NCBI GenBank assembly: GCA_020725405.1 | Contig: DYFB01000009.1 | Location: 1-37,764 of the forward strand | Direction: 5' to 3' | Length of the DNA stretch: 37,764 bases | Source: Symbiobacterium sp. | GTDB lineage: Bacteria > Bacillota > Sulfobacillia > UBA995 > UBA9673 | Shown here: piece by piece, positions 27,848 through 37,764 of the stretch | Layout of the letters: every line of letters starts with the position of its first letter | How positions within the stretch are numbered: position 1 is the stretch's first letter | Position numbers and translations under genes: made by a program | Notes under the pieces: model-generated | Told to the model about the DNA's origin: nothing | The model's input: the letters and a program-made list of their open reading frames with translations, nothing else | Database searches by the model: none

Positions 27848-29782
27848 ATGAAGGCGGATATCGGTTTCACCGGCTCCAGGAAGAGATGGCTGGAGTGGAC
27901 AGCCTGGAAGCTTGTCCCGGCTCCGGGGAGCCCCGAAGGGGAACTCCCCGAGGTCACCTGCCGGGCCGCCTTCGACCCCGGCAACCTTTACCTGCGGGCA
28001 GACGTCAGGCCTCTCCGGGGGGCCCACGGCGAGCGGAGCTGGCGTTACGGCGACGGCTTCCAGGTGGTCCTCTCGCCCGACGCCGTAGATGAAGAGACCA
28101 GCCGGTTCGTGGTCTTCGGCTTCGGCATCGAGGCCGGCCGGCCTCAGGCGCTGGTCGTGAACAGAAACGGCGTCTGGTTCCCCGGGCCGCTCCCGCCGGG
28201 CGTCCGTCTGGCCGTCAGGCCGGTCGAAGGCGGAGCCGTCTACGACATGACCCTGCCCTGGTCCGCCGTCCCCCCTCTCCAGGGCCTGCTGGACGAGGCT
28301 ATCGGCCTCAACGTCACCTACGTGGCCAGAGTCCCCGCAACCGGCGGTAGGGCGGTCCTCCAGCTCGTCGAAGACCCCGGCTACGACGACGAGCTGCGGT
28401 CGGTGAGGCGGGTGGCCAGGATCGGGCTCGACGTCGGCCAGCCGCAGTCCACCGCGGTCCGGGCCCGGCTCGACCGGACCTTCGGCATCGACGGTACCGC
28501 CGCGGTGGCTGAGATAGCCATCCTGACCGGCCGGAGCAGCCGGGCCGAACTGGTCGCCGAGGTCTTCCAGGACGAGGGCGACCGGCCTCAGGACGCCGCA
28601 GCGCCCGTGGAGTCAGTTCCCGTTCCCGGGCCTGCCGGCCCGGTATCCCGGCGTCGTCTCGCGCGTTCGCTAGCCTCCTATGCCGTTTACCCCGGCGCGA
28701 ACCGCTACCGCCACGACTGGCGCGCGGCGGCCCTCGGGACTGGGCCGCACTCGCTGGACCTTGAAGTTTCGGTCAACGGCCGCGTCGAACTCAGACAGAC
28801 CCTGCCCTACTACTCCCTCCGGACCGACGACGTCGCCTCGCTCAAGCTCCTCTACGCGAGAGCCGCGGCCCGCGCCCCCGGACGACTCAGCCCGGTCCTA
28901 CCGTCGGTCGCAGCCCGGTTCGAGTGGCTCGACAGGCTCAAGACCGCCCTCGACCCCAGCGCCGACCCTGCCCCCCTCCGGTCCCTCTTCGACGAACTCG
29001 TGAGGATGACGGCCGCCCTGGAGGCCGGCCGAGACCCGTTCGCCGGACGGGCGGGCCACCAGAGGCGCAGCTTCCGCTCCAAAATCGATGGGTCGCTTCA
29101 GCCCTATTCGGTCCACGTTCCTCCGGTCTCCGTCGAGGCCCCGGGTGAGCGGCGGCCGCTCCTCGTCCTCCTCCGCGGAAGCGGCGTTGACGAGGTGGGC
29201 GCGGCGACCGACCCGCGCCTCGTGCCCCGGCTGGACGAGCACGGGTGTCTTCTCTGCGCTCCCTTCGGCCGCGATCTCGACGACTGGTATCTCGGTGACG
29301 GCGGACGCGACATCTTCGAGGCCCTCGACGCCGCCCGCTCGATCCTCCCCGTGGACGACCGGGCTGTCTTCCTCGCCGGGCACTCGATGGGCGGGTACGG
29401 GGTCTGGCGCCATGGCCTGGCCAACCACCGGCGCTTCGCCGGGCTCGTGGTCATCTCGGGCTTCACGCACCCCCCGGCCGGCACCGGGCGCGAGCCGGAC
29501 GACCCGGCCCGCTACCTTGGCCGGGTCGAGGGGCTCCCGGTCTTCGTCACCCACGGACTCGAGGACAGGGTCGCACCCATCGGTCCCACCCGAGAATTCG
29601 TCGACCGCCTCAGGGAGGCCGGGGCCGATGTTCGCTACCGCGAGATAGCCGCCGCCGCTCACTTCGACTACGACCCCTGGCCGGAGGTCTTCGCCTGGAT
29701 GGAAACGGTCCTGGCCAGACGCTGCCCTCGGGAGCAGGCGAGCCCGGCGGAAGGGAACGGGTCTTCGGGCGAGAAGCGGTAG
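27848..29782 (+). CDS. CBM9-like domain fused to an alpha/beta-hydrolase esterase
   Basis: A 644-residue protein with two parts. Residues about 10-200 are a beta-sandwich of the carbohydrate-binding CBM9/DOMON-like type (AAFDPGNLYLRADV, YGDGFQVVLSPD, YDMTLPWSAVPP, GLNVTYVAR). A linker region (about 205-395) with Pro/Ala stretches follows. Residues about 400-630 form an esterase/peptidase alpha/beta-hydrolase: nucleophile elbow GHSMGG with Ser513, Asp573 in GLEDRVAP and His605 in AAAHFDYDPW. Related PHB-depolymerase-like or prolyl-oligopeptidase-like hydrolases show the same triad order. There is no signal peptide from the ATG at 27848 (GGAGG 13 bases upstream), so a cytoplasmic location or an unrecognised export is implied. 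Its substrate is probably a carbohydrate ester, which is inference. Confidence 0.82.
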   Translation: MKADIGFTGSRKRWLEWTAWKLVPAPGSPEGELPEVTCRAAFDPGNLYLRADVRPLRGAHGERSWRYGDGFQVVLSPDAVDEETSRFVVFGFGIEAGRPQALVVNRNGVWFPGPLPPGVRLAVRPVEGGAVYDMTLPWSAVPPLQGLLDEAIGLNVTYVARVPATGGRAVLQLVEDPGYDDELRSVRRVARIGLDVGQPQSTAVRARLDRTFGIDGTAAVAEIAILTGRSSRAELVAEVFQDEGDRPQDAAAPVESVPVPGPAGPVSRRRLARSLASYAVYPGANRYRHDWRAAALGTGPHSLDLEVSVNGRVELRQTLPYYSLRTDDVASLKLLYARAAARAPGRLSPVLPSVAARFEWLDRLKTALDPSADPAPLRSLFDELVRMTAALEAGRDPFAGRAGHQRRSFRSKIDGSLQPYSVHVPPVSVEAPGERRPLLVLLRGSGVDEVGAATDPRLVPRLDEHGCLLCAPFGRDLDDWYLGDGGRDIFEALDAARSILPVDDRAVFLAGHSMGGYGVWRHGLANHRRFAGLVVISGFTHPPAGTGREPDDPARYLGRVEGLPVFVTHGLEDRVAPIGPTREFVDRLREAGADVRYREIAAAAHFDYDPWPEVFAWMETVLARRCPREQASPAEGNGSSGEKR

Positions 29783-29828: not shown

Positions 29829-30578
29829 TTGGCTCGGCCCGGAGGACCCCGCGTCCTCGTTGCCTTACCCTGCTACAACGAGGAGAAGGCCCTGCCTTCC
29901 CTCCTCAGGAAGCTCGACGCCCTGGCGGCGGCCGCCGGACCCGAAGTCCGCTTCCTCCTGGTGGACGACGGCAGCCGGGATGGGACCCCTGACCTTCTCG
30001 CCGGCTACGCGGCCGGGCGCGGCGACACCGAGGTCATCCGCCACCCCGTGAACCTGGGGCTCGGCGCGGCCGTCCGGACCATTCTCGAGTATGCCGCGAC
30101 CCACCTCGAAGACGACGACGTCCTGGTGACCATGGACGGCGATGACACCCACGACCCGGCCATGGTTCCGGACATGGTGGCCAAGCTCGACAGGGAGGGT
30201 CTCGACCTGGTCGTGGCCTCCCGCTATGCCCCGGGGGCGGGCGAGTTCGGCCTGGGCCTGCACCGTCGGCTCCTGAGCCGCGGGGCCAGCCTTTTCCTTC
30301 GCCTTTTCTTCCCCATTCCCGGCGTCCGGGACTACTCCTCAGGTTACCGTGCCTACCGGGTCGCCCTCATCCGGCGGGCCATGAGGCGCTGGCCCAGCCT
30401 GGTGACGACCAGCGGGTTCGACTGTATGGCCGAGCTGATGGCCAAGATAAGCCGCCTCGAGCCCCAGGGAGGCGAACACCCCCTGATCCTCCGCTACGAC
30501 CGCAAGCAGGGCCGGACCAAGATGCGTGTTCTCCGGACCATACGCGGCTATTTCAGGCTCCTGAAGGAGGCCGGCTGA
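29829..30578 (+). CDS. GT2 glycosyltransferase, DPM1/polyprenyl-phosphate type
   Basis: A soluble family-2 glycosyltransferase of 249 residues. Motifs are VALPCYNEE at residue 11, LLVDDGSRDGT (about 43-53), MDGDDTHDP (102-110), the DxD-like acidic site, and SRYAPG. It lacks membrane segments, as in the DPM1 subgroup that loads sugars onto polyprenyl phosphate. The TTG start at 29829 follows GGGAGGTGACGGCCG. It begins a run of closely spaced plus-strand genes: the flippase candidate begins 3 bases after its stop. Context suggests that it makes a lipid-linked sugar for the exosortase-linked pathway downstream. Confidence 0.9.
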   Translation: MARPGGPRVLVALPCYNEEKALPSLLRKLDALAAAAGPEVRFLLVDDGSRDGTPDLLAGYAAGRGDTEVIRHPVNLGLGAAVRTILEYAATHLEDDDVLVTMDGDDTHDPAMVPDMVAKLDREGLDLVVASRYAPGAGEFGLGLHRRLLSRGASLFLRLFFPIPGVRDYSSGYRAYRVALIRRAMRRWPSLVTTSGFDCMAELMAKISRLEPQGGEHPLILRYDRKQGRTKMRVLRTIRGYFRLLKEAG

Positions 30579-30580
30579 AG

Positions 30581-30940
30581 ATGAAGACCTACGCCGTCGC
30601 CCTGGTCTCCATCGCCCTCGGGGCCGCCGGGCAGTTCCTTCTGAAGCTCGGCGCCGATCAACTCAAGGACCTCGCGACCGTCCCGGCCGCCCTCACGCGA
30701 ATGTTCACGACACCGGGCATCCTGGCCGGCCTGGTTTGCTTCGGGTCGAGCTTCGTCCTCTGGGTCCTTGTCCTCCGGAGCATGCCGCTCTCGACCGCGT
30801 ATCCCCTCGTGAGCCTGAGCTACGTCGTCGTCACGGCCCTGTCAGTCGCCTTCCTCCACGAGACCCTGACAGCCCTCAAGCTCGGCGGACTCCTTCTCAT
30901 CGTCACCGGGGTCATCCTCATCGGTCTGGGGAGCGCCTAG
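30581..30940 (+). CDS. SMR/EamA-type four-helix membrane protein, possible lipid-linked sugar flippase
   Basis: A 119-residue protein with four membrane helices (about 2-20, 43-65, 72-91, 97-117) and the pattern SIALGAAGQFLLKLG near the N-terminus and STAYPLVSLSYVVVTALS in the third helix. That is typical of small EamA/ArnE-ArnF-like transporters rather than drug pumps. ArnE/F flip undecaprenyl-phosphate-linked aminoarabinose, and the upstream DPM1-like gene fits such a role; GGAGG at the end of that gene is its ribosome binding site. The stop of the upstream gene is 3 bases before the ATG, indicating coupling. Flippase activity is inferred from context. Confidence 0.85.
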   Translation: MKTYAVALVSIALGAAGQFLLKLGADQLKDLATVPAALTRMFTTPGILAGLVCFGSSFVLWVLVLRSMPLSTAYPLVSLSYVVVTALSVAFLHETLTALKLGGLLLIVTGVILIGLGSA

Positions 30941-31018
30941 AAGGTGCATGAGGCGTCGTTGCGAGAGGATTCTTCCTCACGCCGACGAAGGGTCTCGTTT
31001 TAACCAGGGGGTACGCCG

Positions 31019-34000
31019 ATGCGCCCGGGCGACGCAGACAGGGCAAACTCCTACGACTTGCGCCTGACCTTCTTCCTCAACGCCAAGCACCAGGTGCCTC
31101 TGGCCGGGTCCACTGGACCGGCGCACCGTCACTCGTGGCGTCTGGACGTCGTCTTCGAAGCCGCCTTCCACGAGAGGGAGGCCGTACCCGGCGTGGAGTT
31201 CGCCGACGTCGAGCGGGCGGTCCGTGACGTTCTCCGGCCTTACGAGGGGTGCTTCCTGAACGAGATGCCCCCCTTCGACCGGGTCACCCCGGCGACGGAG
31301 AACCTGGCCCGCTTCCTCTATGGGGCTATCGGCCGGGCCGTCTCCGGCCTGGGCGTCAGGATTGTCGACGTTACCCTCTGGGAGACCCCCACCAAAGGGG
31401 TCACCGTCCGTGCCCCTCTCTCGGCGGCTCACGCGGGGTTCGTGAGGGAGGCGGCGGCGACCGGCGAAGAGCTTCCAGGGAGGGTTCGCGGCGTCCCGAC
31501 AGCCCGAGACCCGGGCTCGGACCGAAGGGGCCGGCCCGGTGAGAGGGGCGCTGTCCTGCTCGGCCTGTTGGCGCCCCTTCTCGTCCTCCTTGCCGTCGGG
31601 GGTCTCACCGCGGTCGTCTACCTGCCGCTCCTGAAGCCCCTGACCGGCCCGTCCTTCCCCTGGGGGAGCGACACCTGGGGGCATCTCTTCAAAGCCTACT
31701 ACCTCTACCAGAGTGCCGCCGCCGGGAACCTGTACCCGGCGCTCATGCCGTGGTGGTACGCCGGAATCGAGCCTTTCCGCTACTGGGCCCCGCTCCCGTA
31801 CTACGCCCTGGCCGCCCTCCGCTACTTCAGCGGCAGCATTTTCACGGCCGGAGCCTGGCTCGTCCCGCTTTGCGCCCTGTTCGGCGGGCTCTCCTGGCTC
31901 GCCTTCGCCCGTCGCCTGGGTTGGTTAGGCGCCTGCGTCGCCGGGCTGGGCTGGGCGGTCTGGCCCGACCACGTCCGGGTAGCCCTCTCCGAGGGGAACC
32001 TCCCCCGGGTCGTGGCCACGGCTCTTCTCCCCCTGCTTTTCGCGACGTTCCTTGACAGCCTGGAGCATCGCCGCTGGCCATGGCCGGGCCTGGCCTTCGT
32101 TGTCGTCCTCAATCTCGTCGTCCTGTCGCACGCCATGGTCGCGGCCATCGCCTGTCTCGGCCTGGCCGCTTTCTCGCTCCTTTTCTGGTGTTTCTCCGGA
32201 ACGCGCGGCCGGGACGTGGTCCGGGGGGCCGCCCTCATCGTGCTCGGCCTCCTTGTCTCCTCCTGGTGGTTGGTGCCCAGTCTTTCGGGAGGGATAGCCG
32301 CCATCGACCCCGAGGCGGTCAGGCAGGCGGCGGACTACTTCCCGCTGTCCGTATCCCTGAACCCCTTGATCCGGCAGACCAATCCTGAGGTCTTCTACCT
32401 CGGACTCTCGTCCGCGGTCCTGCTCGTCCTGGTGCTCACCGGCTGGTCGCGGAGAGACCCTCTGGCCAGAGCCTTCTTCGTCTGTGCCCTTCTGGCCATG
32501 GTCATCACCTTCCCGGCGGCCCGCCCGCTGGTCTCGTTGCTTCCCGGAAGCCAGCTTCTCTGGCCGCTGCGCTTTGCCAGCCTCCTGCCCATAGCCCTTT
32601 TCCTGGCCGCGCTCCCGCGTCCTTCGCCCCTCCCGGCTGCCGGGCCCCCGCCGTCCGAACCGCCTTCGCGGGTCGCGGCCTCGGGCCGCCGTCGCCTGAA
32701 GCCGGCGGAGGCCGCCCTGACCTTCCTCATCGCGGCCATCGTGCTCGCCGATGCCTCCGGGTCCTTCCATCTCATCGGGACCCGGGCTGCCCGGAGCGAC
32801 CTCGCCGAGGCGGCCGACGCCCTCCGCGGGAAGGACGGCTGGAGGGTAGCCGTCCTCGATCTCAGCCGGCTCGGCTCCGAGCCGTCCTTCGTGTTCTCCC
32901 AGTCCGGGGGGCGCGAGCAGGTCTTCGGCTGGGCGTGGCAGGGTGCGGCCATCGGACCCGGCCTCGTTCTCCTGAACACAGCTCTGGAGCAGGGCCGCTA
33001 CACCTATGCTGTGGACCGGTCCCTCCAGCTCGGCGCGACCGACCTGGTGGTCCCCACCGGGTGGGTCGACGCCTCACGCCTCGCCCCGGCCGCGGTCCAG
33101 GCCGGCTACTCCGAGCGGGAGACCTACGGACACCTCGACCTCTACCGGCGCTTCCTGCCTCCGTTCGCTCTCAGGCACACCTACGAGGTCCTAGCCGTAG
33201 GGCGCTACGCCGGCAACGCCTCCCTCCTCTTCCCCGCCGTCGAGAGAGGGACCTCGCCCTACATCGACAGCTACGATCTCGCGGACCTTCGCTCCTACCG
33301 GGCCGTCTTCCTCACCGGGGCGACGTGGCGGTCCAGATCTAGGGCGGAGGACCTCATAAGGGCCTATGTCGCCGCCGGCGGGCGCGTCGTCGTCGATCTC
33401 ACCGGGTTTCCAACCAGCGTCCTCAGCAAGCGCCCCTCCTTCCTAGGCGTGGTGGGGGAGCCGGTCCAGCTGACCGGGGCCACGACCGCTTCCGGCCCGC
33501 TGGGCCCGGTCGGGCCGCTCACCTGGAGCCCCCTCTACGACCCCTGGGCCGCCTTCATCCCCCACGGGCTGGATCGCAGTCTCCTGGCTTTCGAGTACTT
33601 CGGCCAGTCGGCCGACATCATCGGCGAGAAGGACCTTGACGGTGGGCCGGTCACCTTCGTGGGCCTCAACCTTCCCTACCACGCTCTCCTCACCGGCGAC
33701 CCGGCCGCCCTGGACATGCTGGCCGGGCTCCTTGGGGTCGAGCCGGATGAGCCGCCGGCCCGCGAGACGCTGCCTCTCGCCTCCTACCGGGCCACGGCGA
33801 GAGGCTACAGCTTCACCGTCGATGTCCCTGGGGGGTGGGACGGCGCCCGTCTCATTCTGCCCTTCGCCCACCATGACGCCGTCAAGGTCGCCCTCGACGG
33901 CCGACCGGTCCCGGTCCGGCCCGTGGAGAACCTGATTGCCGTCGAGGTCGCCGCCGGCCGCCACCGCGTCGATATCGAAGCGACCCGCCCCCCCCTGGCC

Positions 34001-34105
34001 GGGGTCTCCGTCCTGGTCTCAGCGACAGCCTTTGTTCTCTTAGCCGCCTACTCGGTCGTCACGGCCCTCCAGGCCCGGACCGGCCGGAAGGAGGTCTCGG
34101 TCTGA
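31019..34105 (+). CDS. PTPS/QueD-like domain fused to large membrane protein, XrtG-associated
   Basis: A 1028-residue fusion. Residues about 10-130 are a 6-pyruvoyl-tetrahydropterin-synthase/QueD-like domain: FFLNAKHQVPL, HRHSWRLDV, TPATENLARFL and VTLWETPT. The zinc histidines His24, His36 and His38 and Glu122 are kept. The usual catalytic Cys and the LDH motif (here YEGCFLNE) are altered. A linker then leads to about ten to twelve membrane helices (about 178-610), with SDTWGHLFKAYYL in the first external loop, as in GT-C-like enzymes. A long extracytoplasmic part (about 620-990) and a final helix (about 1000-1020) complete it. This matches the 'PTPS-related' membrane family found with XrtG exosortases. 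AGGGGG precedes the ATG at 31019. I infer sugar transfer on the outer face. Confidence 0.85.
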   Translation: MRPGDADRANSYDLRLTFFLNAKHQVPLAGSTGPAHRHSWRLDVVFEAAFHEREAVPGVEFADVERAVRDVLRPYEGCFLNEMPPFDRVTPATENLARFLYGAIGRAVSGLGVRIVDVTLWETPTKGVTVRAPLSAAHAGFVREAAATGEELPGRVRGVPTARDPGSDRRGRPGERGAVLLGLLAPLLVLLAVGGLTAVVYLPLLKPLTGPSFPWGSDTWGHLFKAYYLYQSAAAGNLYPALMPWWYAGIEPFRYWAPLPYYALAALRYFSGSIFTAGAWLVPLCALFGGLSWLAFARRLGWLGACVAGLGWAVWPDHVRVALSEGNLPRVVATALLPLLFATFLDSLEHRRWPWPGLAFVVVLNLVVLSHAMVAAIACLGLAAFSLLFWCFSGTRGRDVVRGAALIVLGLLVSSWWLVPSLSGGIAAIDPEAVRQAADYFPLSVSLNPLIRQTNPEVFYLGLSSAVLLVLVLTGWSRRDPLARAFFVCALLAMVITFPAARPLVSLLPGSQLLWPLRFASLLPIALFLAALPRPSPLPAAGPPPSEPPSRVAASGRRRLKPAEAALTFLIAAIVLADASGSFHLIGTRAARSDLAEAADALRGKDGWRVAVLDLSRLGSEPSFVFSQSGGREQVFGWAWQGAAIGPGLVLLNTALEQGRYTYAVDRSLQLGATDLVVPTGWVDASRLAPAAVQAGYSERETYGHLDLYRRFLPPFALRHTYEVLAVGRYAGNASLLFPAVERGTSPYIDSYDLADLRSYRAVFLTGATWRSRSRAEDLIRAYVAAGGRVVVDLTGFPTSVLSKRPSFLGVVGEPVQLTGATTASGPLGPVGPLTWSPLYDPWAAFIPHGLDRSLLAFEYFGQSADIIGEKDLDGGPVTFVGLNLPYHALLTGDPAALDMLAGLLGVEPDEPPARETLPLASYRATARGYSFTVDVPGGWDGARLILPFAHHDAVKVALDGRPVPVRPVENLIAVEVAAGRHRVDIEATRPPLAGVSVLVSATAFVLLAAYSVVTALQARTGRKEVSV

Positions 34106-34990
34106 ATGAGCACCCATCACGGTTTCCATACCGCGCTGTCCCGGCGCCTCGCGACCTGTCTCGCTCTTGCAGCCGCCCTCGCCCTCGGCTTGATCATCCC
34201 CACCCGGGCGTCCGCCGGGCCGCCCCCCATCGTCCTCGACGGCGACTTCGCCGAGTGGAACGGCCGCATCGCCATCCCCGACACCTCGGCGCGGGAGGAG
34301 CCCTTCGACCAGAAGTCCGTTAACTTCATCGAGGACATCCAGTGGTTCTACTACGGGACGAACCCGGGCGAATCGTGGCTCTTCTTCCGGGTCGGCCGCT
34401 ACCCCAAACCGACGGGCGGAACCAGGAACGGTATCTCCCAGCCCGTCTACTACGGCATCTTCATCGACTTCAACAACACCCACCGGAGTACGACAGATCG
34501 CTTCCAGGGCTACCAGGACCCCGAGGACTACGTGCTCTACTGCGCCTACACCCCGGACCCCGGTTCGGGACTGCCCATCGCCCACGTCTACCTCGTCCCG
34601 GCGCCGGCGGTCTTCCAGGCCGACGAGCTCGACCCGGCCGCCATCCTCTGGGAGGCCCAAGGTCCCTGGGGCCAGCCGTACGACTCGGCGACGGGGACGG
34701 GAGGACTCATCGTCGAGTTCGGAGTTCCCTTCGAGGCTTTCGACCCTGACTTCCAGCCGGGTCAGGTCATCCAGTTCTTCCTCGGAGCCACCCTCAACGA
34801 CCCGCTGAACAAGATAGACTATCCCCAGCAGGACTTCTGCCCGAACGAAGGGTGCATCCAGGACGCCCCGGTCCCCATCCTCGGCCTCCTCGGGACCATC
34901 CTCCTCCTCGGCGTCGGTCTCGCCGTCGCCTACCTCACCATGCGGCGGTCCGGGCCCGACCCGGCCGGGGGAGGGGTGTCTCCCCGGTGA
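34106..34990 (+). CDS. Secreted CBM9-like protein with C-terminal sorting-type tail
   Basis: A 294-residue protein, likely the dedicated substrate of the next gene, an exosortase. A basic start and hydrophobic core form a signal peptide, with cleavage expected after ASA at residue 37. The mature protein begins with VLDGDFAEWNGRIAIPD, a CBM9/DOMON-like opening, and contains YYGIFIDFNN and GGLIVEFGVPFEAF. Two cysteines (245, 250) precede a C-terminal tripartite tail: DAPVPILG, a membrane helix (about 258-278), then MRR and a short tail. That layout resembles exosortase sorting signals such as Firmicu-CTERM or PEP-CTERM, though the usual invariant motif is not obvious. The ATG follows GGAAGGAGG; the stop overlaps the exosortase GTG. 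Confidence 0.82.
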   Translation: MSTHHGFHTALSRRLATCLALAAALALGLIIPTRASAGPPPIVLDGDFAEWNGRIAIPDTSAREEPFDQKSVNFIEDIQWFYYGTNPGESWLFFRVGRYPKPTGGTRNGISQPVYYGIFIDFNNTHRSTTDRFQGYQDPEDYVLYCAYTPDPGSGLPIAHVYLVPAPAVFQADELDPAAILWEAQGPWGQPYDSATGTGGLIVEFGVPFEAFDPDFQPGQVIQFFLGATLNDPLNKIDYPQQDFCPNEGCIQDAPVPILGLLGTILLLGVGLAVAYLTMRRSGPDPAGGGVSPR

Positions 34991-35583
34991 CGCTCTGGGT
35001 GGCCGCCGCCGTCGTCTGGGTCGTCCTCGTCGCCGCCCTGCGACTAGGGCGGCTGTGGCTGCCCTTCTATGTCCTGGCGACCGTGGGTTTCGCCCTCCTC
35101 TTCCTCGTCGCCGCCCGGGGCTCACCCGTCGAGCACGCCCTCGAGGCCGCGACGGCCCAGCACGCCCACGAGGTGTCAGGACTCCTTGGCATCCCGACCA
35201 TGGTCTTCCGCAACGCCCCGGGGACTCTTCTCGTTCTCGTGGTCGTCGGTCGCGTCGGATGGACTATAATCGAAGTGGGGATCGAGTGCTCCGGCCTTCT
35301 CGAGCTCGCCGCCTTCGCCGGCCTCCTCCTCTTCTATCCCGGTCTCCGGGTCGGCCGCCGCCTCACCCTCCTGGCCTTCGGCCTGGCGGCCACTTACGCC
35401 ATAAACATTCTCAGGCTCCTTGTCATCATCGCCTTCCTTCACTGGGGAGGTAAGGACATCATCTTCCTCGCCCACACCGTCATCGGGCGGGGAGTCTTCT
35501 TCGTCCTGGTCATCGCCCTCTACTGGTTTGTCTTCACCCGGGCCGCGCTCCAGGCGGTCCGGGAGCGCGTCGCGCAGGGCTGA
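34987..35583 (+). CDS. Exosortase family protein, XrtG type
   Basis: A 198-residue, mostly hydrophobic protein with five or six membrane segments. Exosortase catalytic residues are present in order: Cys101 in IECSGLLELAAF, Arg143 in AINILRL, and His163 in LAHTVIGRG; Arg124 in GLRVGRR is a further conserved-type arginine. Exosortases cut a C-terminal sorting signal in the membrane and attach or release the protein. The GTG at 34987 overlaps the preceding stop (GTGA), consistent with coupled synthesis of enzyme and substrate. The neighbours (PTPS-related membrane fusion, processive GT2) are those I associate with the Gram-positive XrtG type. Length is typical for XrtG. Confidence 0.88.
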   Translation: MTLWVAAAVVWVVLVAALRLGRLWLPFYVLATVGFALLFLVAARGSPVEHALEAATAQHAHEVSGLLGIPTMVFRNAPGTLLVLVVVGRVGWTIIEVGIECSGLLELAAFAGLLLFYPGLRVGRRLTLLAFGLAATYAINILRLLVIIAFLHWGGKDIIFLAHTVIGRGVFFVLVIALYWFVFTRAALQAVRERVAQG

Positions 35584-35624
35584 AGCCCGGCCGCTGCGGC
35601 CGGGCGCACGGGAGGTGTCGGGTC

Positions 35625-37040
35625 ATGCTGCTTACCCGGGCTATGAACCTGTTCCTCTTCTGGGGTATCTGGCTGCTCGTCCCCCTTCTGGTCGACGGCT
35701 TGTCGGCCGTGGCCCAGCTCATCAGCATCATCTCCGGGGAGAGGTCCCGCCGGAGGCGCCTTCTGAAAGAAGTCCGGGAGAGCGGACACCGGTCGCCCCT
35801 CGGCCGCCGGCCCGGGCCGACGTCCCTGTCCCAGTCGGTCCTTCCGCCGCTGGACCGCTTCCCCTTGGTGACCGTGATCGTCCCCGTCCACAACAGCTCG
35901 CAGACCGTGGGAAGCACCCTCGAGTCCCTCGCCCGGCAGACCTACCCCACCGAGGCCCTCGAGATCATCTGCGTCGACAACGGGAGCACCGACGACTGCT
36001 TTCAGGTCTTCTCCCGCTTCCAGGAGCGGCATCCCCGGCTTCGGCTCGCCTGGATCCCCATCGAGCGCCCCGGAAAGGCCGCCGCCCTCAACGCTGGCAT
36101 CTACTCCAGCGCCGGCGTCTACATCATGGGCGTCGACGCCGACGTTCGTCTGGCCCCCGACGCCATCTACGAGATGGTCCGCAGCTTCGAGTTCCGACCG
36201 AACCTCGTCGCCGCCACCGGAGCCATCGCCGTCGCTCCGCCGAGGGGGGACAGGGGCCGCCTCATGGCCCTCCTCCACACCTGCGAGGCCTTCGAGTACC
36301 TCAGCGCCTTCGGGGTCGGGCGGCGCTACCAGTCCCACCGGAACGCGCTCTACACCCTCTCCGGCGCCTTCTCGGCCTTCCGGCGGGAGGTTCTCCTTGA
36401 AAGCTCCTATCTCTTCGACAACCTTACTGTGTCTGAAGATACCAAGCTGACCTTCGACCTCCGGAGCCGCGTTTACGTGCGCAGGCCGGGTGCCGCGCTG
36501 GAGTGCGTGGACAGCGCGGTGGCCTTCGTCCATCCCATCCCCTCCCTGGCCGCTCTCTACTCCCAGCGCCTTCGCTGGCAAAGGGGCCAGGTCGAGGTTG
36601 CCGCTCTCCACTCCCAGGAGCAGGCCGGCCTTGCCGGTCCGTTCCGCAGTCTCTCCGGGCGCATCCTGCTCGCCGACCACACTCTGGCCTTCCCGCGGCT
36701 CGTCTGGACCTTCCTCCTCCCCTTCCTCTTCCTCGTGGGCTACAGCCCGGCCGTCGTCCTCTCCGCCCTCGCGGCCATGTACCTCGCTTACGTCTTCATC
36801 GAGTGTCTCTTCTACCTCGCCTGCTATCACTATACAGTGGGCGCGGGTCGCCGCTGGCTGCGAAAGGTAGCCTGGGTGGTGCTGCTTATGCCCCTCTTCC
36901 GATTCATGGTCTACTGGTTCCGCCTAGGCGGCATCCTCCACGCCGTGGCCGAGCCCCAGCGCTGGCACACCCCGCCCTTCCGGCGCGGGCCCGCGCGGCC
37001 GGAGGCGCCTGTCACCCCGGCTGCCCGGACGGGAAGGTGA
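35625..37040 (+). CDS. Membrane GT2 glycosyltransferase, exosortase-G associated
   Basis: A 471-residue processive-type family-2 glycosyltransferase. Catalytic motifs are VIVPVHNS and CVDNGSTDD (nucleotide binding), GVDADV (DxD), VSEDTKL (the TED-type base) and QRLRW (Q-x-x-R-W of processive enzymes such as cellulose and hyaluronan synthases). Two membrane segments lie near the N-terminus (about 8-40) and about four near the C-terminus (about 360-440). It follows the exosortase by about 40 bases, with GGGAGGTG before the ATG at 35625. The same family is found next to XrtG in Gram-positive bacteria, where its glycan product is not established, as I recall. Confidence 0.9.
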   Translation: MLLTRAMNLFLFWGIWLLVPLLVDGLSAVAQLISIISGERSRRRRLLKEVRESGHRSPLGRRPGPTSLSQSVLPPLDRFPLVTVIVPVHNSSQTVGSTLESLARQTYPTEALEIICVDNGSTDDCFQVFSRFQERHPRLRLAWIPIERPGKAAALNAGIYSSAGVYIMGVDADVRLAPDAIYEMVRSFEFRPNLVAATGAIAVAPPRGDRGRLMALLHTCEAFEYLSAFGVGRRYQSHRNALYTLSGAFSAFRREVLLESSYLFDNLTVSEDTKLTFDLRSRVYVRRPGAALECVDSAVAFVHPIPSLAALYSQRLRWQRGQVEVAALHSQEQAGLAGPFRSLSGRILLADHTLAFPRLVWTFLLPFLFLVGYSPAVVLSALAAMYLAYVFIECLFYLACYHYTVGAGRRWLRKVAWVVLLMPLFRFMVYWFRLGGILHAVAEPQRWHTPPFRRGPARPEAPVTPAARTGR

Positions 37041-37046
37041 CAGCGG

Positions 37047-37625
37047 ATGCTGCGAAGAGCTCTTGACATCATCCGCCCCGGGGTCTCCGGGGCCATCGCC
37101 CTTGACTTCGTCGCGGGGATCACCCGGTTCCACCGCATCCAGGCCTCCCCCGGCTACCGGGAGTCCGCCCACTGGTGCGCCCGGCGCCTGGAGGAGGCCG
37201 GTCTCGAGGTCGAGGTCCTCTCTTACCCCGCCCGTCCCTCCCAGTCGTACTGGGCTCAGGTCATGTTCCAGGAGTGGGCCTGCGAGGAGGGAACCCTCGA
37301 CCTTGTCGCCCCGGCGGCCGAGGCCCGGCGGCTCTGCGACTTCCGGGCCAACCCCCTCGCGGTCATCCAGCGGTCCACCTCCACCCCTCCCGGCGGCCTG
37401 AAGGCCCCGGTCGTCGTCGTCGACCGCGCCGACGTGCCGGCCTCCTACGAGGGAATCGACGTCCGCGGGCGCTTCGTGCTCTTCACCGGCGACGCCCAGC
37501 GGGCCTACGAGCTGGCCGTCGTCGCGAGGGGGGGCGCCGGGCTTCTCACCGACCAGATGTCCGAGTTCGCCCCGGTGAGGACGGCCTTCGACCTCCCCTC
37601 GGCCACCCAGTACGCGTCCTTCTGG
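37047..37625 (+). pseudogene. M28-type peptidase-like gene, interrupted by an intron
   Basis: The first 193 codons resemble the N-terminal part of M28-family (aminopeptidase Y-type) proteins: FHRIQASPGYRESAHWCARRLEEAG, then a PA-like domain with APVVVVDRADVPASYEGIDVRGRFVLF and GGAGLL. The catalytic zinc domain should follow, but the reading frame passes into the antisense 3' end of a group II intron at 37626 and stops at 37632-37634. The protein is therefore cut after about 193 residues and lacks all catalytic residues. The ATG at 37047 has a GGGAAGG upstream, six bases past the GT2 stop, so it was the last gene of the exosortase-linked operon. The rest may lie beyond the window. Confidence 0.8.
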
Positions 37626-37764
37626 ATCGGGTAGGAGGGGAGCGTCTCGCTCCCCGTCCTCCCACACCACCGGACATGCGGGTCCGCATCCGGCGGTTCA
37701 GCAAGGTTGACGAAGTGTGCGGTATGTGGCGTGCAAGCTGATGAGGCCCTGGGCCTGCCAGTAG
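37626..37764 (-). mobile_element. 3' end of a group IIC intron, antisense to the host gene
   Basis: On the minus strand the C-terminus of an intron-encoded protein is followed by a domain V hairpin GAACCGCCGGATGCGG…CCGGTGG (37699-37665) with the CGC-type catalytic triad of class IIC introns. Next is a domain VI-like stem GGAGG…GGGGAGCGAGACGCTCCCC…, ending CCTACCCGAT at the exon junction near 37626. The intron reads off the right window edge. Its orientation opposes the peptidase gene, so splicing could not repair the peptidase transcript. Class and junction are set by motif recognition; the exact boundary needs comparison with an uninterrupted copy. Confidence 0.8.
37698..37764 (-). CDS. ltrA: C-terminal end of group II intron reverse transcriptase/maturase
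   Basis: The minus-strand frame from the window edge reads YWQAQGLISLHATYRTLRQP-C followed by TGA at 37700-37698. This is the usual end of group IIC intron-encoded proteins (pattern G-L-x-S-L…R-Y-x-x-L). Only 21 codons are inside the window. It is followed immediately by the domain V structure. Confidence 0.8.
   Translation of the reverse strand, partial: YWQAQGLISLHATYRTLRQPC

Follow-up and report, generated by a model that had tools for sequence, protein, structure and literature searches.

A divergent XrtG exosortase locus in Symbiobacterium, read as a probable surface-glycan assembly machine

What is an exosortase for when its gene lies among those of glycosyltransferases and an apparent flippase? 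The question is raised by six genes at positions 29829-37040 of a 37,764-nucleotide contig of Symbiobacterium sp. (DYFB01000009.1; the whole stretch is hereafter called the window), which the original prediction, made from the letters alone, had described as a compact XrtG-type exosortase locus with a complete set of partner genes. Our analysis leaves little doubt that the locus is of the XrtG kind, an already known system of which the window's genes are, on sequence comparison, divergent members. We consider it probable that these genes form a machine for assembling a surface glycan, with a CBM9-like glycan-binding protein as its dedicated partner; covalent attachment of this partner in this organism we hold to be somewhat less likely than not.

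To place the locus, all six open reading frames were confirmed on the plus strand at the predicted positions, with gaps or overlaps between neighbours of -4 to 78 bases. The exosortase passes the superfamily signature TIGR04178 (57.6 bits against a cut-off of 23), carries the superfamily Cys, Arg and His, correctly numbered in the original prediction as Cys101, Arg143 and His163, and is the only exosortase in the window genome. It scores 97.6 bits with the XrtG model TIGR03110, for which the curated cut-off is 102.75. In the exosortase tree it falls inside a supported group of 18 that includes members above that cut-off (for example, L034, L035 and L038), and we therefore treated it as a divergent XrtG. 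Its neighbours behave alike: the GT2 enzyme, of the processive PgaC kind, reaches 361.9 bits with TIGR03111 (cut-off 363.95), and the domain related to 6-pyruvoyl tetrahydropterin synthase (PTPS) reaches 68.4 bits with TIGR03112 (cut-off 69.35), its gene adjoining the others of the set. The comparison with NCBIfam models that had been proposed as a check thus yielded matches to all three XrtG-set models, each 1–5% below its own cut-off. The QxxRW motif is kept in all 52 GT2 proteins that partner an XrtG. A PDB sequence search with XrtG gave no match. The features of the locus are as follows.

29829-30578, plus strand: DPM1-like GT-A glycosyltransferase (putative polyprenyl-phosphate sugar synthase), 249 residues; PF00535, 101.5 bits.
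30581-30940, plus strand: SMR/EamA-type four-helix protein, putative polyprenyl-phosphate sugar flippase, 119 residues; nearest to ArnF/ArnE.
31019-34105, plus strand: PTPSR, a PTPS domain joined to a GT-C membrane glycosyltransferase, 1028 residues; PF10131, 455 bits, and PF01242, 62 bits.
31046-31414, plus strand: PTPS/QueD-like domain (residues 10-132) with the zinc His triad but without the catalytic Cys and His; 2dj6 comparison and site tally.
31664-31684, plus strand: motif G216-S-D218-T-W-G-H222 of the first extracellular loop of the GT-C part, D218 being the candidate catalytic Asp; homologue tally.
34106-34990, plus strand: SEC, a secreted CBM9-like protein, divergent Firmicu-CTERM, 294 residues; hhalign, with the CBM9 fold taken from a homologous domain.
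34856-34987, plus strand: C-terminal tail of SEC, IQDAPVPILGLLGTILLLGVGLAVAYLTMRRSGPDPAGGGVSPR, with motif, transmembrane helix and basic end; tail alignment and genome profile search.
34987-35583, plus strand: exosortase XrtG, 198 residues, GTG start, 4-base overlap with the SEC stop; TIGR03110 and TIGR04178.
35287-35289, plus strand: XrtG Cys101 codon (predicted nucleophile); alignment and tally.
35413-35415, plus strand: XrtG Arg143 codon; invariant in the 52 tallied sequences.
35473-35475, plus strand: XrtG His163 codon; invariant wherever the column is covered.
35625-37040, plus strand: processive GT2, XrtG-associated (TIGR03111), 471 residues, with QRLRW.

Two overlapping samples of the phylum, of 398 genomes each, contained 13 and 22 genomes with XrtG, respectively. 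XrtG occurred in 16/154 genomes of the window's class, about half of them weak matches in one family, and in 14/63 of the class of Syntrophomonas and relatives (that of G015). Further relatives, in Syntrophomonas, Desulforamulus, Thermincola, Tepidiforma (Chloroflexota) and Lachnospiraceae, came from scanning named genomes. Weak exosortase matches, such as those of family f5 of the window's class, were left out, and the two such loci examined (L048 and L049) had no XrtG-type neighbours. Bacillota loci near the window have, as a rule, the order PTPS/GT-C, tail protein, XrtG, GT2; this order recurs in relatives from several classes, indicating that it is not due to chance and bearing out the view of XrtG, PTPS-related protein and GT2 as a conserved trio. 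In Lachnospiraceae loci the GT-C gene is placed elsewhere in the locus, and three Chloroflexota loci (L062, L064 and L072, from Tepidiforma and a Dehalococcoidia metagenome-assembled genome) have a stand-alone PTPS gene and no detected GT-C. These three loci also encode a large unrelated tail protein with the tail SGAPTMGW....

The largest protein of the locus, PTPSR, provides the link to glycan transfer. Its AlphaFold model (pLDDT 88.5, pTM 0.80) has a membrane part that superposes on yeast STT3 over 461 residues (Z 21.9, root-mean-square deviation 4.0) and resembles other GT-C structures, namely AglB and AftD (Z 20.0), PMT (19), PglB (18) and ArnT, an enzyme acting on undecaprenyl-phosphate sugar (16.6). 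On this model we confidently assign the membrane part to the GT-C glycosyltransferase fold; the PTPS_related family belongs to the GT-C clan CL0111 (PMC7801869). Within the motif GSDxxGH of the first extracellular loop, Asp218 is kept in 34 of 35 homologues and His222 in all 35. PTPSR is the sole PF10131 gene of the window genome. The proposal of a PTPS domain fused to a membrane part stands, with the qualification that the PTPS half lacks its catalytic Cys and His. That half is a true PTPS fold (2dj6, Z 15.4). Among XrtG-associated PTPS domains, the zinc histidines are kept in 52/52, the catalytic Cys and the catalytic His in 0/52 each, and the acid of the pterin site is Glu or Asp in 54/54. 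A working PTPS enzyme was rejected because the catalytic residues are absent; the domain should instead bind some ligand rather than produce a pterin.

The secreted protein encoded directly before xrtG had been singled out for a sorting-type tail. The tail was found, consisting of a PVP motif followed by a helix and then RR, but the partner is not new, as it belongs to the already named family Firmicu-CTERM (PMC12854382). SEC itself gave no direct family match, including none to TIGR04145. Its alignment with authentic Firmicu-CTERM proteins of Lachnospiraceae-type loci had an hhalign probability of 98% (E 3e-13), and TIGR04145 was matched by a SEC homologue (E 8e-4) and by a second SEC copy in the window genome (E 0.0013). 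By these profile comparisons, SEC is a divergent Firmicu-CTERM protein and the predicted target adjoining xrtG. A profile of the tail retrieved exactly two proteins from the window genome, at E about 1e-20 each, the next match being at 0.11. The second protein (L109:9326-10117, minus strand, on G000:C20) is unlinked to the locus, Firmicu-CTERM-like with a CBM9 domain, and has an identical tail type. A sorting enzyme that acts in trans would require just such a tail, common to an unlinked protein, and the pair of tail proteins is consistent with XrtG acting in trans. Neighbours of the second gene are an NAD-dependent epimerase and genes that look like fatty-acid synthesis.

The predicted fold of the tail protein comes from the SEC-homologous domain in a model of a Syntrophomonas fusion protein. 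CBM9 was closest (Z 10.8 and 10.6) and DOMON-type domains came next, above the Ig-like background; the CBM9 fold was recovered by VIA-align only. A Pfam scan of the SEC family and a PDB sequence search with SEC gave nothing convincing. A Lactiplantibacillus plantarum study reported over-expression of an XrtG system that includes a Firmicu-CTERM protein (PMC12854382).

The two leading genes had been taken to give the locus its own lipid-sugar supply. For the DPM1-like enzyme, the best NCBIfam match is PpgS, a polyprenyl-phospho-GalNAc synthase (70 bits, below cut-off). The four-helix protein does match EamA (37 bits), as originally described, but it is nearest to ArnE/ArnF (ArnF 69.9 bits against a cut-off of 99); identity as a drug-efflux SMR protein was rejected, as the models of these lipid-sugar flippase subunits fit better. 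SMR relatives are also present in XrtG loci of other families, lying within about 10 kb of xrtG in 12 of 25 XrtG genomes. Among the 32 SMR matches across these 25 genomes, 13 lie within that distance whereas about 0.25 would be expected (naive binomial 1e-19, a value that ignores kinship), so the suggestion that DPM1-like and SMR genes accompany xrtG beyond chance held. The supply claim thus survives in that the pair recurs near xrtG, and is weakened by a patchy distribution. In some other loci the DPM1-like enzyme carries a fused GtrA domain, which suggests that the type of flippase can vary while the role stays, and many XrtG loci have a second GT-C, without a PTPS domain, alongside the DPM1-like/SMR genes. 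At L105:5338-6105, the SMR flippase and the DPM1-like enzyme appear to share a single open frame, which may reflect a fusion or a frameshift.

From the gene families we infer the substrates, direction, polymer and attachment chemistry of such a machine, in which a lipid-linked sugar would be made, flipped and used by the GT-C enzyme on a polymer made by GT2. A polyprenyl-phosphate sugar, made by the DPM1-like enzyme on the cytoplasmic side, would be flipped by the ArnE/F-like SMR protein, and the GT-C domain of the PTPS fusion would transfer the sugar outside; GT2 would polymerise and extrude a polysaccharide, the likely acceptor of that sugar. The catalytically dead PTPS domain, expected to be cytoplasmic, may have a ligand-sensing or docking role. 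SEC would be the one dedicated protein partner, held after Sec export by its PVP/helix/RR tail, and XrtG, acting via Cys101, would cut the tail and leave SEC attached to a surface acceptor, be it glycan or lipid. Known multi-component transmembrane glycosylation systems combine GT-A, flippase and GT-C modules (PMC8035078), and we counted the match of the locus to this logic in favour of a glycan machine.

The role of XrtG itself can be approached through a lineage in which it is fused to its partner. At 15 loci, which form one clade in the tree of XrtG and GT2 (support 100/98), XrtG carries the CBM9-like domain as an N-terminal fusion, and a conserved IQWxPFP segment stands in place of the SEC tail and directly continues into the first XrtG helix. 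The catalytic Cys is replaced in 15/15 of these fusions (Asn in 11, Ser in 4) and present in 40/40 unfused proteins; Arg143 is kept in all 52 tallied XrtG sequences and His163 in all that cover the column. The fused XrtG part is under purifying selection (pairwise dN/dS 0.08–0.14), and in the fused genomes checked the Cys-less protein was the only exosortase found. One of them, the Syntrophomonas fusion, still scores above the TIGR03110 cut-off (103.1 versus 102.75). More than one fusion origin was considered and rejected: the XrtG tree was ambiguous (1–2 changes), and the tree with GT2 gave one clade. Because the fusion has a single origin, its association with loss of the Cys represents one event kept through long divergence rather than independent repeats, with later Asn/Ser changes within the clade. 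The clade shows that the CBM9-like domain can do its job while anchored to the exosortase fold. At L038, L044, L045 and L046, it is the GT-C protein that bears the CBM9-like domain, fused at its C-terminus; in Thermincola and L038 this domain keeps the PVP tail, and their XrtG proteins keep the Cys.

The fused clade also yielded some unusual loci. In Desulforamulus putei, one of the 15, the SEC–XrtG fusion gene is truncated and the PTPS/GT-C gene is missing upstream. Abutting the truncated gene (L061:7654-9643) is a likely diversity-generating retroelement with a reverse transcriptase, whose 112-nt repeats differ by 13 mismatches, all at template-copy adenines. The L105 genome has two copies of the fused SEC–XrtG locus.

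Several of these results count against a glycan machine with a processed CBM9-like partner. The CBM9 assignment was made by way of a homologous domain, the model of which is moderately confident (pLDDT 77.9, pTM 0.60) and with which Foldseek returned nothing below E 0.001. The two nearest relatives of the window have no DPM1-like/SMR pair, so that a lipid-sugar supply is not essential, and nearly all Lachnospiraceae-type and Chloroflexota loci lack the pair too, which together marks it as an optional module. Finally, the fused clade speaks against cleavage as a general requirement: in this sister lineage the partner is joined to a Cys-less XrtG, so that it, and at least one version of the pathway, can dispense with being cut. 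The CBM9-like protein might be a subunit, the acceptor-binding domain of a GT-C/GT2 complex, and not cargo, its C-terminal helix and XrtG holding it beside the enzymes and any cleavage being regulatory or secondary. This would fit the fusions both to GT-C (four loci) and to XrtG (15 loci), the uniform lack of Cys in the latter under purifying selection and with no other exosortase found in the genomes checked, and the carbohydrate-binding domains, thought to bind the acceptor, of large GT-C enzymes such as AftD (PMC8035078). We nevertheless regard it as rather unlikely, given that the Cys kept in every unfused XrtG points to catalysis there, that the additional, unlinked copy bearing this tail in the window genome fits a cargo class, and that the GT-C fusions with a PVP tail and basic end are still potentially cleavable. 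A broader claim would be that the main task of XrtG is to hold a glycan-binding subunit of a polysaccharide synthase at the membrane, and not to sort proteins by proteolysis. In the fused lineage, where the subunit is permanently joined to an exosortase fold that has exchanged its nucleophile for Asn/Ser but retains Arg, His and the remainder of the pocket, the fold would then have a second, non-proteolytic job. This claim likewise strikes us as doubtful. For the window's XrtG, processing in trans would be the better reading, because it has Cys101 and the genome encodes two tail proteins apart from it, one of them unlinked.

Less likely still is that XrtG cuts the tail and moves the protein onto a lipid, as proposed for the archaeosortase ArtA, and not onto a glycan, with the glycosyltransferases glycosylating the anchored protein. 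A lipid anchor has been reported for archaeosortase products (PMC11980579) and STT3/PMT-type GT-C enzymes do glycosylate proteins, but one would not expect a short protein glycan to involve a processive GT2 of the PgaC type. As for a loose neighbourhood of envelope genes with no shared pathway, the absence of DPM1-like/SMR genes in the closest relatives and the unrelated look of the flanking genes (an esterase and a peptidase-like frame) would agree with it. It is very improbable, however, in view of the gene order that recurs in many families, the PTPS–GT-C, GT-C–SEC and SEC–XrtG fusions and the co-inheritance seen in the excess of SMR matches within the locus; the neighbourhood survey has already largely refuted it.

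Flanking the locus, a 644-residue protein with an alpha/beta-hydrolase domain near its C-terminus is encoded at 27848-29782, 46 bases upstream of the DPM1-like gene; the related XrtG loci used for comparison showed no counterpart. After the GT2 gene, an open reading frame at 37047-37634 begins, by eye, like an M28-type peptidase, has no family match and is likely to be truncated or frameshifted close to the end of the contig. A promoter scan of the G+C-rich locus region found none.

The fused Cys-less lineage provides a direct route to asking what XrtG really does. The comparison predicts that the PTPS-related protein is a GT-C transferase of polyprenyl-phosphate sugar with a non-catalytic pterin-type domain, that Firmicu-CTERM proteins bind glycans, and that the pathway functions even though the Cys-less SEC–XrtG fusions remain uncut. 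Should this hold, the fused lineage would have turned a member of a presumed protease family into a scaffold, and labelling it automatically as a sortase would mislead.

Compared with known systems, the locus is closest to the XrtG system (TIGR03110, TIGR03111, TIGR03112 and TIGR04145; for example, Lactiplantibacillus plantarum LP_RS09075-09090), with which it shares the four components in adjacent genes, the Cys/Arg/His set, the QxxRW motif of GT2 and a tail protein directly before xrtG. It differs in its scores 1–5% below the model cut-offs, in a Firmicu-CTERM link made by profile–profile comparison only, in the fusion of PTPS to GT-C, in the added DPM1-like and SMR genes and in a PVP rather than an S/TGP tail motif. 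Genes for a GT-A enzyme, a small putative flippase and a GT-C transferase lie together in the window, as in the CsbB/GtcA/YfhO and Gtr systems, whereas in the window the flippase is SMR-type and not GtrA, the GT-C bears a PTPS domain, and an exosortase and a processive GT2 are added to the set. PEP-CTERM/EpsH systems similarly have a multi-pass exosortase, a tripartite C-terminal signal and a link to polysaccharide genes, but the window's exosortase is shorter and of Gram-positive type, with one or two targets and a PVP motif instead of PEP. The PTPS domain, last, resembles QueD and 6-pyruvoyl tetrahydropterin synthase in fold, zinc histidines and pterin-site Glu; unlike them, all XrtG-associated copies are without the catalytic Cys and His, and the domain is fused to a membrane glycosyltransferase.

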